In this document: positions 1,372 to 6,985 of the stretch, piece by piece
Layout: the number at the start of each line of letters is the position of its first letter
How positions within the stretch are numbered: position 1 is the first letter of the stretch
DNA from: Veillonella intestinalis
GTDB lineage: Bacteria; Bacillota; Negativicutes; Veillonellales; Veillonellaceae
DNA length: 64,000 bases
Assembly: GCF_943193155.1 (NCBI RefSeq)
Contig: NZ_CALPDB010000003.1
Span: 186,001-250,000, forward strand
Direction: 5' to 3'
Made by a program: the position numbers and the translations under genes
Notes under the pieces: generated by a model
Told to the model about the DNA's origin: nothing
Seen by the model: the letters and a program-made list of their open reading frames with translations, nothing else
Database searches by the model: none

Positions 1372-1481
1372 AGGTTCAAAATTAGATATGGCGACCAAGG
1401 AATGCATTCTGGGGATTGGGTGAGTGTGTTAGTTTTTTCTTTTTTCTGTGTTTGATCTAAAGAGAGGAAGCGACACAATTA

Positions 1482-4400
1482 ATGAATAGAATTTTTAAAG
1501 TTATATGGAGTAAAACAAAAGGGTGTTATGTTGTAGCCTCTGAATTTGCTAAAAGTTATCAAACCGGTGGGGCTAAACGCACAAGACGTTTAACAGCTGC
1601 CGTTATGGCTGCTTTAATCTTAGCACCACAAGTAACTACATTTGCCACGACAATTACAGTTGGTGGTGAAGATTGGTCAGCTGGTTCTGCTGGAACTGGT
1701 GTTCTTACTGTGGTTGGAAGCGATGGTGTCACGGTTACTACTAGTGATGCAACGGGTACAGGCACTTCAAAAAGTATGACTTTAACCATTGGTTTAGATG
1801 ATGAAACAACAACTGCTATTAGCACAGCTGCTTCTAGTGTAACTTTAGCATCTACTAGTGCATCTAGTGCAGCGTCAAGTGCTATAGATGCGAGTACAAG
1901 TGCTTCATCTTCTCAATCCAGTGCGGAAGTATCTGAATCTTGGGCAAAGCAAGCAAGTACTAGTGCCTCTAGTGCAACATCCAGTGCTACGGCAGCAAGT
2001 GTTAGTGAAAGTAATGCTGTGTCTAGTGCAGCTGAAGCAAGTACCAGCGCATCTAATGCGGCGGTAAGTGAAAGCAACGCCGTTTCTAGTGCTACCGAAG
2101 CAAGTAGTAGTGCATCAACTGCTATTTCTAGTGCCGTTGTAGCAAGTACTAGCGCATCTTCTGCTGACTCTAGTGCTACAGTAGCAAGTACGAGTGCATC
2201 TAATGCGGCGGTAAGTGAAAGTAATGCATCCTCTAGTGCTGAGGCAGCAAGTACAAGCGCGTCAAATGCAGCCGTAAGTGAAAGTAATGCATCTTCGAGT
2301 GCTGAGGAAGCAAGTACAAGTGCTTCAAGTGCAGCGGTAAGTGAAAGCAATGCATCAACTAGTGCTGATGCAGCAAGTACTAGTGCATCAAATGCAGAGT
2401 CAAGTGCTAGTACAGCGACATCTAGTGCTGTTGAGGCAGCGTCTAGTGCGACCGCAGCAAGTGCAAGCGAATCCAACGCAGCCGTAAGTGAAAGTAATGC
2501 AACATCTAGTGCGATAGCAGCCAGCACTAGCGCATCCCATGCAGAATCTAGTGCAACTGCATCGGCATCGAGTGCTACAGCAGCCAATAGCAGTGCATCT
2601 TCGTCTTTATCTAGTGCGGAAGTATCTGAATCTTGGGCAAATCAAGCAAGCACGAGTGCATCATCTGCTGATTCTAGTGCTACAGCAGCAAATACAAGTG
2701 CGTCAAATGCGGCCGTAAGTGAAAGCAATGCATCAACTAGTGCTGATGCAGCAAGTACAAGTGCGTCAAATGCAGCCGTAAGTGAAAGTAATGCATCTTC
2801 TAGTGCTGATGCAGCAAGTACAAGTGCATCAAATGCTGCCGTAAGTGAAAGTAATGCATCTTCTAGTGCTGAGGCAGCAAGTACAAGCGCGTCTAATGCA
2901 GCAGTAAGTGAAAATAATGCTAAATCTAGTGCGACTGCAGCAAGCAGTAGCGCTTCTAGTGCTGAATCTAGTGCTACGGTAGCTAGCAGCAGTGCATCTT
3001 CGTCTTTATCTAGTGCGGAAGTATCTGAATCTTGGGCAAATCAAGCAAGCACGAGTGCATCATCTGCTGATTCTAGTGCAATAGCAGCAAGTACAAGTGC
3101 CTCTAATGCGGCAGTAAGCGAAAACAATGCATCAACTAGTGCTGATGCAGCAAGCACTAGTGCATCAAATGCAGAGTCAAGTGCTAGTACGGCGACATCT
3201 AGTGCTGTTGATGCAGCGTCTAGTGCGACAGCAGCACGTACAAGCGAATCCAACGCAGCCGTAAGTGAAAGTAATGCAACATCTAGTGCGACAGCAGCAA
3301 GTACGAGTGAAGCTAATGCAGCAGTAAGTGAAACTAATGCAGCGTCTAGTGCAACGGCAGCAAGTACAAGCGCCTCTAGTGCAGCAGTAAGTGAAAGCAA
3401 TGCAGCATCCAGTGCAACAGCAGCAAGTACAAGTGAATCTAATGCAGAATCAAGTGCAATAACTGCTTCCGATAGTGCGTCTAGCGCTTCTGTAAGTGCA
3501 AGCTCAGCATCTGATAGTGCATCTAGTGCATCTGAAAGCGCTAGTGTAGCATCTACAAGTGCAAGTTCTGCTAACTCTAGTGCAACAGCAGCATCTGACA
3601 GTGCAACGAATGCTTCTACGAGCGCAAGTAGTGCAGCTACAAGTGCAAGTACTGCATCCGATAGTGCGTCTAGTGCTTCTACAAGTGCAAGTTCAGCATC
3701 TAATAGCGCATCTAGCGCATCTGAAAGTGCAAGTGCAGCATCCACAAGTGCAAGTTCTGCCAACTCTAGTGCAACAGCAGCATCTGACAGTGCAACGAAT
3801 GCGGCTACTAGCGCAAGCAATGCTGCTATAAGTGCAACAGAAGCATCTGGTAGTGCATCTAGTGCATCTGAAAGCGCTAGTGCAGCATCTACAAGTGCAA
3901 GTTCTGCCAACTCTAGTGCAACAGCAGCATCTGATAGTGCAACGAATGCTTCTGCGAGCGCAAGTAATGCAGCTACAAGTGCAAGCGCGGCGTCCGATAG
4001 TGCATCTAGTGCATCCACAAGTGCAACAGAAGCATCTGGTAGTGCATCTAGTGCAGCTACAAGTGCAAGTGTAGCATCTACAAGTGCGACAGAGGCCTCT
4101 GATAGTGCGTCCAGTGCAGAAGCGAGTGCTGCAGCAGCTGACAGCAGTGCAAGTAGTGCTTCTGAAAGTGCTGAGGCTGCTAGTTCTTCTGCGACTGAAG
4201 CTACTGAAGCAGCTACTTCTGCGGCTGAAGCAGCCTCTACAGCAACCGAAGCAGCGTCTAGTGCATCTGAGGCAGCAAGCTCAGTTTCTACAGCCGTATC
4301 TACAGCTGTGCAAAATTTAGTGGATAGTGGTATTACAGGTGGCACAGCTACAGGTGAGGGTGCAACTACTGTAGGTAGTGATTCCGAAGCAGCTGGTGAT

Positions 4401-5246
4401 AATGCCACTGCTATGGGCGATAGTGCTACAGCTACTGGTACAGGTGCCTCTGCTATAGGTGCGGGTGCTACTGCTGATGGTGACAATGCTTCTTCACTAG
4501 GTGCTAATGCTAATGCAACTGGTGACAATACATCTGCTTTAGGTGCTAATTCTGTAGCTATTGGTAGTGGTGCTACTTCCGTAGGAGCTAATGCATCTGC
4601 TACAGCCGACAATGCTACAGCACTTGGTAACGGCGCGTCTGCAACGGCTTCTAATTCTGTAGCATTAGGTGCAAACTCTATAGCTAATGAAGAAAATACA
4701 GTATCTGTTGGATCTGCAGGTAATGAACGCCGCATTACTAATGTCGCTGATGGTGTTAATGATACTGATGCTGTCAATGTGCGCCAATTGAATTCTATGA
4801 ATAGTTCTCTTACAAAAGAAATTAGAAATGTGGGCTCTTTAAGTGCTGCATTGAGTGGCTTAAAACCAATTCAATATGATGCTGCTGAGCGAACTCAAAT
4901 TATGGCTGCTGTAGGTACTTACCGAGGTCATAACTCTATGGCACTTGGTGTAGCTCATTATGTAAACGATTCTACAATGTTCAATATTGGGGTTGCTTAT
5001 GGTGATCATGATGCTAAAGTAATGGCTAATGCTGGCGTAACTTGGAAATTTGGTACATCAGCACAACGTGAAAAAGCAGAAGTACAACAATTAGCAGGTA
5101 AAGAAGCACAACAGCGTATTAGCCAATTAAGTGCGGCTAATGCAGCACAAGCAACTCAAATTCAAGAACAGCAGGCTGAATTAAGTGCTCAAAATGAACG
5201 TATTGCTAAATTAGAAGCATTAGTACAGCAATTGGTTCAAAAATAA
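1482..5246 (+). CDS. trimeric autotransporter adhesin (YadA/Hia type), Ser/Ala-repeat stalk
   Basis: This 1,254-residue surface protein would mediate attachment as a type Vc secreted trimer. Residues 1-24 ([20 protein letters not shown]) are an ESPR extended signal region. A hydrophobic core follows at 38-55, with cleavage probably near TTFA. Residues about 115-940 are Ser/Ala-rich heptad repeats of the [15 protein letters not shown] type. Residues about 955-1080 are YadA-like head repeats ([20 protein letters not shown]). A HIM-like neck motif ([10 protein letters not shown]) lies near 1094, and the four-strand YadA anchor at about 1117-1190 ends in VTWKFG. Unlike classic members, about 64 residues of coiled coil follow the anchor. 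The head repeats sit next to the membrane and the stalk is distal, the reverse of YadA. The ATG follows an AGAGAGGAAG ribosome binding site. Confidence 0.93.
1840..4290 (+). repeat. Ser/Ala heptad repeat array encoding the adhesin stalk
   Basis: Degenerate repeats built on 21-bp (7-codon) units encode [15 protein letters not shown]-like segments. Larger exact or near-exact blocks recur. A block starting at 2601 recurs at 3000 (399 bp apart), and one at 2394 recurs at 3171 (777 bp apart). The SESWAKQ/SESWANQ element occurs three times, the first two 693 bp apart. All of these spacings are multiples of 21 bp, so duplications kept the heptad register. The array is likely to expand and contract by recombination and hard to assemble from short reads. 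Confidence 0.9.
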
Positions 5247-5251
5247 GTATA

Positions 5252-5338
5252 AATTTTGATCAAGAAGCTCGTTTACAAGCACAACAAGCTGAAATTAATG
5301 AGTTAAAAGCAGCTATGCAAGCGGTTCTTCAGAAATAG
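5252..5338 (+). pseudogene. remnant of a second adhesin C-terminal coiled coil
   Basis: Directly after the adhesin stop codon, in another frame, 28 codons encode a coiled-coil end (EARLQAQQAEINELKAAMQ, finishing AVLQK) and then stop at TAG. It closely resembles the adhesin's own C-terminus ([19 protein letters not shown]). It has no start codon or ribosome binding site. It is most simply a leftover of another trimeric autotransporter, or of an alternative tail, after recombination. The similarity is seen directly; the history is inferred. Confidence 0.65.
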
Positions 5339-5374
5339 TTGGTAGTTTTGACAATTTATTAATCTCGGCAATAC

Positions 5375-5409
5375 AAAACCCCTCTCTCGAATTTGAGAGA
5401 GGGGTTTTT
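5375..5409 (+). terminator. Rho-independent terminator after the adhesin
   Basis: A 10-bp GC-rich stem (CCCCTCTCTC and its complement) with a 6-base loop is followed by TTTTT and preceded by AAAA, so it may also work for the converging transporter gene. Confidence 0.88.
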
Positions 5410-5485: not shown

Positions 5486-6985
5486 TTATACTAAACCAAT
5501 CCAATGCCAGTAAGTAGCGGCATATACTACAAGTAAAGCATATCCGATGATGGTAATAGGAATCCCGGTTTTCATGAAAGTTTTTACATCAAAGGTACCT
5601 GTACTGTAAGCAACCATACCTTGTGGTGAGTTAACGGGTAGAATAAAACCGAAACAAATGGAGAATTGTGCAATCATAGTGAGGCCTACTGGATTGATAC
5701 CAGGAATATGAACTGCTTGCACAATAGAAATAACAATAGGAATCATGGCAGAGGCTAAGGCCGTTGCTGAAGCGAATCCTAAATGGATGGCGATGAGGAA
5801 GAAGGTAATTGTACCAATTAACATGAATACTGATAAAGTTTCAAGGGTAAACATGTGAACAAATGCATTTGCCAGCCATGTAGCCGCTTTAGTTTTTAAA
5901 AGGGCTGTCCCTAAGCTAATACCAGCACCGAACATAACAATAGAGCCCCAATCGATACGTCCTTGGGCATATTTCCAGTCAATGATACCTATGCCCGGCA
6001 TTAAGAATAAGGCAATAGCTACAATTGTGGTAGTAGATGTATCGTATTTATGTAAGTGACCACCAGTAGCCCAGAAACCAAGTAAAATAAGAGATAAAGT
6101 TAATAGTTTCTTTTCGTTAAAGGTCATAGGACCTAGTTCTTTTAGATGTCGTTGTAGTTCTTGTTGTGAACCTTCTAGGTCATGTTCATCTGGTTTTAAA
6201 AGCCACATGGATAAGAAGTAGTAGATGACGATCATTACTAATGAATATGGTGCGGCAGCTAGTAACCAATCTAGCCAAGAAACAGATGTATTAAGCTGTG
6301 AAGAAATAAAGCCGACAGCTACTAAATTTTGGGCCGCCGCAGTTTGGACCATGATGTTCCAAACGGTATCAGCTTGGGTAGCACCAACTACGAGTAAAGC
6401 GGCTAATTTACTTTGACGATTAATTCCAAGACTATCTAAGATACCAATGATGATAGGGACTAAGCAAGCTAGGCGCGCAGTAGCACTTGGCACGAAGAAG
6501 GAAAGAATGAAGCCTGTGAAAATTACACCAATATAGATATGACTTGTTTTGGTTCCGATTCGTGAAAGTACATTTAATGCAATTCGGCGATCAAGACCTG
6601 TTTTAGTCATTGCTACAGAAATAAACATAGCTGCGGCAACTAACGCCCAAGCTGGTGTGGAATAACCAGAGATAGCTATTTTTAAGGCATTACTGGTGCC
6701 GAGTATTTTGGCTGGATCATCCATATTAGGTGCAGTACCTAATAATAAGGCTGTTAGGGCTGTTAACATAGTAGCACTAACAGGGTAGGAAACAGCGCTT
6801 GTTATCCACAGCACGATGGCAAAGAAAAGAAGGCCAATCATGCGATGCCCTGCTGTAGATAAGTCGCTCGGTGTAGGAATACATAGAATGCCGAGTAGAA
6901 CCAAGAAGCTAAGAATCAAGCCAATGTTTTGACTATTGGAACGAGCCTTAGCAGGTGCCGGAGCGGGTGAAGCTGGTTGTGTCAT
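5486..6985 (-). CDS. DASS/SLC13-family anion symporter
   Basis: This 499-residue integral membrane protein has about a dozen hydrophobic segments and belongs to the divalent anion:sodium symporter family, which moves di- and tricarboxylates or sulfate. The segments SFFVPSATARLACLVPII and LPVNSPQGMVAYSTGTF occupy the positions of the two substrate- and sodium-binding SNT loops, but neither keeps a strict Ser-Asn-Thr. The substrate therefore cannot be read from the sequence; malate, succinate or a related acid would suit a lactate/dicarboxylate fermenter. It is transcribed alone, away from the GntR gene, which could regulate it. A short inverted repeat lies upstream at 7161-7185. Confidence 0.85.
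   Translation of the reverse strand: MTQPASPAPAPAKARSNSQNIGLILSFLVLLGILCIPTPSDLSTAGHRMIGLLFFAIVLWITSAVSYPVSATMLTALTALLLGTAPNMDDPAKILGTSNALKIAISGYSTPAWALVAAAMFISVAMTKTGLDRRIALNVLSRIGTKTSHIYIGVIFTGFILSFFVPSATARLACLVPIIIGILDSLGINRQSKLAALLVVGATQADTVWNIMVQTAAAQNLVAVGFISSQLNTSVSWLDWLLAAAPYSLVMIVIYYFLSMWLLKPDEHDLEGSQQELQRHLKELGPMTFNEKKLLTLSLILLGFWATGGHLHKYDTSTTTIVAIALFLMPGIGIIDWKYAQGRIDWGSIVMFGAGISLGTALLKTKAATWLANAFVHMFTLETLSVFMLIGTITFFLIAIHLGFASATALASAMIPIVISIVQAVHIPGINPVGLTMIAQFSICFGFILPVNSPQGMVAYSTGTFDVKTFMKTGIPITIIGYALLVVYAATYWHWIGLV

Follow-up and report, generated by a model that had tools for sequence, protein, structure and literature searches.

Classical adhesins of the YadA type (type Vc) carry their outer-membrane anchor at the extreme C-terminus and end in its last strand, whereas the protein encoded near the beginning of the window (the 64,000-nt stretch of Veillonella intestinalis DNA analyzed here) continues for 64 residues beyond its anchor and is followed, in another reading frame, by a fragment that resembles this extension. 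What is this tail, what might it do, and where does the stray second copy come from? The study of Veillonella trimeric autotransporters cited below as PMC7549365 is presumably that of Bechon et al.

An adhesin that continues past its anchor

Adhesin A is a trimeric autotransporter of 1254 aa, encoded on the forward strand at 1482-5246 (ORF listing of the window). It bears the hallmarks of type Vc proteins, namely a signal/ESPR region, a YadA stalk and a YadA anchor (PF03895), arranged as follows:

Residues 1-45 of adhesin A: ESPR signal (Pfam, E 1.2e-13)
2085..4276, + strand: Ala/Ser-rich repeat passenger of adhesin A (Tandem Repeats Finder)
4731..4850, + strand: YadA_stalk, PF05662 (Pfam, E 4.8e-15, residues 4-43 of the translation of window positions 4722-5243)
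4872..5051, + strand: YadA_anchor, PF03895, with four predicted beta strands (Pfam, 1.3e-13 on the C-terminal 174 aa; AlphaFold2 strands)
5052..5243, + strand: C-terminal tail of 64 residues, a predicted helix and heptad coil, periplasmic if the usual topology holds
5199..5216, + strand: RIAKLE, a match to the motif RhxxhE (from the sequence; enriched across the tails of the genus)

The anchor coordinates were converted from C3:190872-191051 by subtracting 186000. We take RhxxhE to be a trimerisation motif. Within positions 1400-5400, the periods of 20 of the 22 repeat-array rows are multiples of 21 nt (those of the remaining two are 30 and 33), and since 21 nt correspond to 7 residues, the passenger also looks like a heptad rod.

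The anchor match stops at residue 1190, with VTWKF as its final letters, and the stop codon (5244-5246) lies 64 residues further on. The anchor was matched in the scan of the genome and again with the C-terminal piece; in the Pfam run on the whole protein, ESPR alone scored above the cut-off and YadA_anchor was not listed. An AlphaFold2 model of the last 174 residues (single chain, based on 89 aligned sequences of the same genome and its relatives) consists of a helix, four strands at 58-67, 70-80, 85-94 and 100-108, and a final helix at 114-173, with a mean pLDDT of 79 that falls to 54-61 at residues 111-130 and stands at 78-87 from residue 131. The four strands end at 108 and give way to a short linker and a single helix of roughly 60 residues, so the model does not carry the anchor to the C-terminus. 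The sequence-only reading, which had described a complete anchor ending near residue 1190 with about 64 residues of coil behind it, is thereby borne out by the PF03895 match and by the predicted strands; the circumstance that it had named against itself, strands running through the tail to the C-terminus, is not predicted by the same model. It had also placed the tail in the periplasm as a helical coil, which agrees with the predicted helix and the heptad statistics given below, while the periplasmic location would follow from the position of the tail in a type Vc topology.

Tailed autotransporters have precedents. According to passages of PMC7549365 (2020), a coil or an SLH domain lies past the anchor in all Veillonella trimeric autotransporters, V. 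parvula SKV38 included, so that the tail itself is already known as a general trait of these proteins, and adhesin A, although it departs from the classical C-terminus, stays within the wider type Vc family because this tailed variant is part of it. With a predicted helix directly past the anchor and the heptad statistics of its genus, adhesin A is built like the proteins described there, likewise a YadA anchor and then a coil, and differs from them only by the adjoining deletion scar described below; the statistics on register and on paralogues come from the present analysis. We regard adhesin A as an ordinary type Vc adhesin of Negativicutes.

The SLH-tailed autotransporter form of Negativicutes (PMC5491611, 2017) and OmpM, with its triple-coil periplasmic stalk bearing SLH (PMC10628300, 2023), are alike in placing a periplasmic SLH domain or coil on an outer-membrane barrel trimer, but the stalk of OmpM is N-terminal, whereas the tail of adhesin A is C-terminal and gives no SLH match. 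AtaA-TpgA of Acinetobacter (PMC13082670; PDB 9vnj) similarly has a periplasmic element at the barrel that is proposed to strengthen anchoring, except that TpgA is a separate peptidoglycan-binding protein while the element of adhesin A is part of the same chain. The same article cites a preprint (Dorison et al., 2026, bioRxiv 10.64898/2026.01.22.700529) for a wide distribution of C-terminal periplasmic extensions. CbpF of Fusobacterium nucleatum (PDB 9gh4; PMC12012533) belongs to a different phylum, yet our anchor-plus-tail profile matches its residues 333-472 of 489, reaching into the tail (E 8.6e-37); the membrane part is missing from its high-resolution map. The classical YadA and Hia anchors (PDB 2lme, 2gr7, 3emo) share the anchor fold (Foldseek E 2e-5 to 1.4e-4), and since the profile match stops 2-5 residues before the end of the solved chains, these chains, which as deposited may not end at the native C-terminus, have no tail.

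A downstream fragment read as the remnant of a neighboring gene

Beyond the stop codon of adhesin A, the sequence-only reading had noticed a piece of 28 codons encoding a similar coiled-coil end in another frame. Such a tail-like reading is present at 5252-5338 (27-28 codons), ending in FDQEARLQAQQAEINELKAAMQAVLQK and a TAG at 5336-5338. The features of this region are:

5247..5257, + strand: 11-nt junction from the stop codon of A to the remnant of gene B (blastn alignments)
5255..5338, + strand: remnant of adhesin gene B, its last 27 codons and stop (ORF listing, DNA and protein matches)
5381..5404, + strand: stem-loop terminator now lying behind A, interpreted as a leftover of gene B (similar hairpin past B in relatives G006 and G001)
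5486..6985, - strand: flanking gene of 499 aa that fixes the synteny (ORF listing, gene order)

The flanking gene looks like a DASS-type anion transporter, and the names transporter and glycosyltransferase-like are likewise assumed by us for the neighbor genes in the relatives G006, G001 and G003.

In three relatives the fragment aligns with the 3' end of an adhesin gene, here called B, at 73/83 nt in G006, 72/83 in G001 and 58/68 in G003 (blastn), and its 27 codons align to residues 580-606 of gene B in G006 with 89% amino-acid identity; judged by these alignments, its likeness to a tail is beyond chance. In a DNA search of the genus, the match to A stops at its stop codon in the relatives, and the fragment matches a separate place further downstream. 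The gene order in G006 is glycosyltransferase-like gene, A, B and transporter; it is the same in G001 without A, and in G003 it reads A, C, B, three more genes and transporter. The frame of gene B spans 712 aa in G001, 722 aa in G003 and 606 aa (open frame) in G006, where a likely start and signal peptide lie upstream in another frame, so that B may be broken there (L043, G006:C83). When the genome of the window was compared with the 606-aa frame of G006, only 5255-5338 was close among 50 matches, the other 49 showing 27-47% identity and falling mostly in known adhesin ORFs. A search for a phage origin of a 655-nt stretch gave no match in 50,697 phage records.

By these matches, the fragment is the 3' end of the neighboring gene B, an adhesin gene that this genome otherwise lacks. 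The ancestral locus would have contained the adhesin genes A and B in tandem, in this order, and the simplest account would be one deletion, from about 11 nt past the stop codon of A to 27 codons before that of B, which would have left the 3' end of B and its terminator behind A. This reading is based on one genome of the species compared with relatives; it suggests that the adhesin repertoire changes by loss of tandem genes, in line with the duplications, swaps and losses that PMC7549365 reports for Veillonella adhesin clusters.

The fragment had been taken earlier as a sign of tail swapping between adhesin genes. We abandon this interpretation, because gene B occupies the same place in the relatives and only its last 27 residues remain here; the alignment with other adhesin tails that had been proposed as a check is best explained by the 3' end of B. 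A related idea, that the fragment is a functional spare tail, whether gained through recombination (tail swapping) or reached through a frameshift where A ends, could appeal to the position of the fragment in the -1 frame of A, to the A-rich last codons of A and to the domain swaps among these genes reported in PMC7549365. Yet the -1 frame is expected by chance about one time in three, both the source and the place of the fragment are accounted for by the loss of B, and A ends without such a fragment in G003, G004 and G006. The fragment also lacks a usable start codon, the sole one in its frame after the stop of A being an ATG seven codons upstream of the TAG, and the ORF listing of the window holds no ORF of at least 25 aa ending at this TAG. 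Nor does the junction of A and fragment, as far as we can judge, form a canonical X XXY YYZ slippery heptamer. We therefore give the spare tail almost no credence.

Distribution of tails

In the genome of the window, all 17 anchors carry tails (42-178 aa), and across seven genomes of the genus 117 of 119 anchors read into a tail, the other two having stops inside the anchor. A tail is thus seen past every uninterrupted anchor examined in these genomes, although four of the 117 look truncated or frameshifted (three in G004, one in G005). This comparison of C-termini, which had been suggested with the sequence-only reading, agrees with a conserved extension. The three tails of this kind in G004, together with an anchor with an internal stop in the same genome (L064, L125, L143, L154), may reflect adhesin decay or assembly errors; in G005, gene A has no stop at the usual place and reads 14 residues further (L047, G005:C65:4518-4697).

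Outside these genomes, a search of 200 genomes of the class gave 23 new loci (L075-L097) among 30 matched, all with tails of at least 37 aa on the primary anchor; these are high-scoring matches rather than a random sample, and the tail of L077 leaves its contig. Tails of 43-93 aa followed 82 of 82 complete anchors at 80 of the 103 loci found in named genomes, Synergistes MAGs included, in a scan whose patterns lay within the anchor but whose query alignment contained tails. Thirty loci from distant families also have tails, often Pro/Ala-rich or short, the shortest complete ones being 16, 25 and 31 aa (at L244 the tail is cut by the contig end).

A motif resembling GPISSxYVxQDE stands between linker and coil in 64 of the 82 named-genome tails (loose pattern; e.g., L009, L010, L091, L092, L190), also in Synergistes, a count that cannot be read as a frequency because an alignment of tails of this kind had served to select the set. 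The stretch PQYVVQNEV of CbpF is related to it.

Heptad register and constraint on the tail

Among 107 distinct tails of the genus, the periodicity of hydrophobic residues is strongest at 3.50 (z=56 relative to shuffled tails), and 37 tails contain RhxxhE, whereas 2000 shuffles gave 2.5 +/- 1.6 and never more than 8; tails entered the motif and period tests without their first 12 residues and any SLH part, and related tails are not independent. The indels give the clearest sign of a coil. Where two related tails differ by a single internal gap, this gap is a multiple of 7 residues (7, 14, 21 or 28) in 64 of 76 pairs, while the other 12 have off-register gaps, of 18 in seven pairs, of 3 in two and of 1, 2 and 13 in one pair each. 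These pairs are not independent either, and rows of V. magna and V. ratti, SLH tails and pairs below 65% identity were left out. In the 27 orthologue pairs of equal tail length (out of 39), dN/dS is 0.073 for the tail and 0.036 for the anchor. Since indels come mostly in multiples of 7 and the dN/dS of the tail is low, the register appears to be mostly kept and the tail to be under purifying selection. Our results thus mostly confirm the published trait and sharpen it, the tail being a mostly register-constrained coil.

Across the class, tails are, to judge from their sequences, not always coils. A loose coil test was failed by 15 of 27 distant-family tails (taken from 27 of the 30 loci, with a single locus per genome and one tail shortened to the part before its SLH), although 45% of shuffled tails pass the same test. 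With a stricter window, 25 tails from low-copy genomes (of 28 matches, after omission of one already sampled, one with an internal stop and one partial) fell into 15 scoring at least 0.75, one at 0.62 and nine at 0.38 or less. Lys/Glu/Ala-rich charged, helical tails without a heptad core (L272, L276, L278, L280 and similar) were observed in genomes with few adhesins. By the loose test, all 136 tails from genomes with at least five adhesins were coil-like (23 of them chosen by anchor score), versus 12 of 27 from genomes with one to three. We do not rely on copy number as a cause of the coil: besides the permissiveness of the test, family is confounded with copy number, and low-copy genomes have both kinds of tail.

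Possible roles of the tail

Taking these observations together, we regard it as probable that adhesin A is a type Vc adhesin whose heptad-coil periplasmic tail clamps the trimer, and that the fragment behind it is the deletion scar of gene B. From the type Vc topology, the three tails would exit at the periplasmic rim of the barrel and could wind into one parallel trimeric coil that continues approximately in line with the stalk outside; such a coil might staple the three subunits during and after assembly and keep the long adhesin from being pulled out under load. Those paralogues whose coil ends in an SLH domain would gain peptidoglycan binding in addition. A clamp is favored by analogy with other systems: UpaG subunits are reported to trimerise in the periplasm, ahead of insertion (PMC5670179), bound TpgA-N roughly doubled the peak extraction force of AtaA in simulations (PMC13082670), and OmpM likewise has a triple-coil stalk in the periplasm (PMC10628300).

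The tail had been proposed earlier to contact peptidoglycan or the OmpM layer, and the bare coil could indeed act as such a tether by analogy with sister proteins in which SLH follows the same kind of coil: an SLH-like HWAY motif occurs in 3 of the 17 tails of the window's genome, the two tested both give Pfam SLH matches (1.7e-12 and 2.9e-11), HWAY is found with 21 of the 119 anchors of the genus (one of them cut short), and the SLH form is suggested in PMC7549365 to attach to peptidoglycan. We nevertheless consider a tether unlikely for adhesin A, whose tail matched neither SLH (PF00395), in the very run that detected it in the two sister tails, nor any other binding domain above the Pfam cut-off, and because length variation in heptad steps among relatives is easier to reconcile with a spacer or clamp than with a binding rod of fixed length. 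Still less probable, and in our view only barely credible, is a disordered or cleaved tail without function. The low AlphaFold2 confidence where the tail begins, the absence of the membrane part of CbpF from its map and the Pro/Ala-rich or very short tails of some distant relatives would fit it, but the heptad period, the mostly register-preserving indels and the purifying selection speak against it.

Two loci, L017 (G000:C3:170925) and L148 (G004:C8:14381), combine a coil with an end element R-(I/V)-D-x-(I/V)-S-G and have no SLH motif in between, as if SLH had been lost.

Tails differ between paralogues

Apparently new is the observation that paralogues with alike anchors differ in tail length while orthologues mostly match. 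None of 31 within-genome pairs with anchor identity of at least 0.75 has tails of the same length, versus 27 of 38 orthologue pairs (27 of 39 without the anchor limit), orthologues being defined solely by the DNA after the stop codon; 113 of the 119 anchors entered, the two with internal stops and the four with truncated or frameshifted tails (three in G004, one in G005) being omitted. A second set, from named genomes without V. magna and V. ratti, gave 1 of 32 within genomes (the lone pair having tails only 47% identical) versus 57 of 86 orthologue pairs. Amino-acid identity being an unreliable clock for an anchor under constraint, pairs were also matched on anchor DNA, and the contrast in tail identity persists, so that a misleading clock does not account for it. 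At anchor DNA identities of 0.80-0.90, the mean tail identity is 0.86 for 15 orthologous pairs, 10 of which agree in length, and 0.48-0.57 for 17 within-genome pairs, of which none does; at 0.95 and above, the values are 0.97 (8 orthologue pairs) and 0.67 (3 within-genome pairs). The pairs in these comparisons of length and identity are not independent. Equal length is equally rare over all within-genome pairs (13/887), and an active avoidance of equal length can therefore not be claimed.

With 13-23 anchors of one kind encoded per cell, these differences raise the idea that the tail serves as a homotypic address, gene-specific coils making the subunits of one adhesin trimerise with themselves. 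Besides the contrasts in length and identity just described, it would fit the periplasmic trimerisation of UpaG, of which two differently tagged co-expressed forms gave mixed trimers (PMC5670179). Sorting of subunits by their tails, if real, would account for the avoidance of mixed trimers in a cell with about 17 trimeric adhesins that resemble one another. A neutral alternative is that anchors are homogenized by gene conversion or change slowly, with older tails left behind, and the rarity of equal length among all within-genome pairs weakens the argument from length. Moreover, coils one heptad apart could still pair, and coils can occur in low-copy genomes too. At the DNA level, the tails of the G006:C5 paralogues (0.86) are no less alike than orthologous ones (0.77-0.84), and for the shorter G000/G001 tail orthologues are no closer than paralogues (0.79 versus 0.80-0.81), although in protein sequence the orthologues are the closer ones (0.82 versus 0.55-0.58). 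We judge such an address improbable, about as much so as the tether, and a shade more doubtful the broader proposal that, in bacteria with many adhesins and alike anchors, a gene-specific coil tail prevents mixed trimers in addition to clamping the trimer. Among the papers listed from the PMC literature on heterotrimers and gene conversion in trimeric autotransporters, none deals with paralogue tails to judge from titles and the beginnings of abstracts, and the preprint of Dorison et al. may cover the subject.

Two within-genome pairs have near-identical anchor DNA and differing tails (1.00 versus 0.81 in G001, 0.99 versus 0.86 for G006:C5), which by their sequences look like gene conversion stopping at the tail. 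Gene conversion does not hold up as a general rule, since only in these two pairs, among five families compared by DNA, are anchors clearly more alike within a genome than between genomes. The anchors of the QLMAKVGM pair in G000 (DNA 0.91) are about as alike as those of orthologues (0.88, 0.91), and most DNA comparisons within the YSNYSK and DYAKG families show the anchors of orthologues to be the closer ones.
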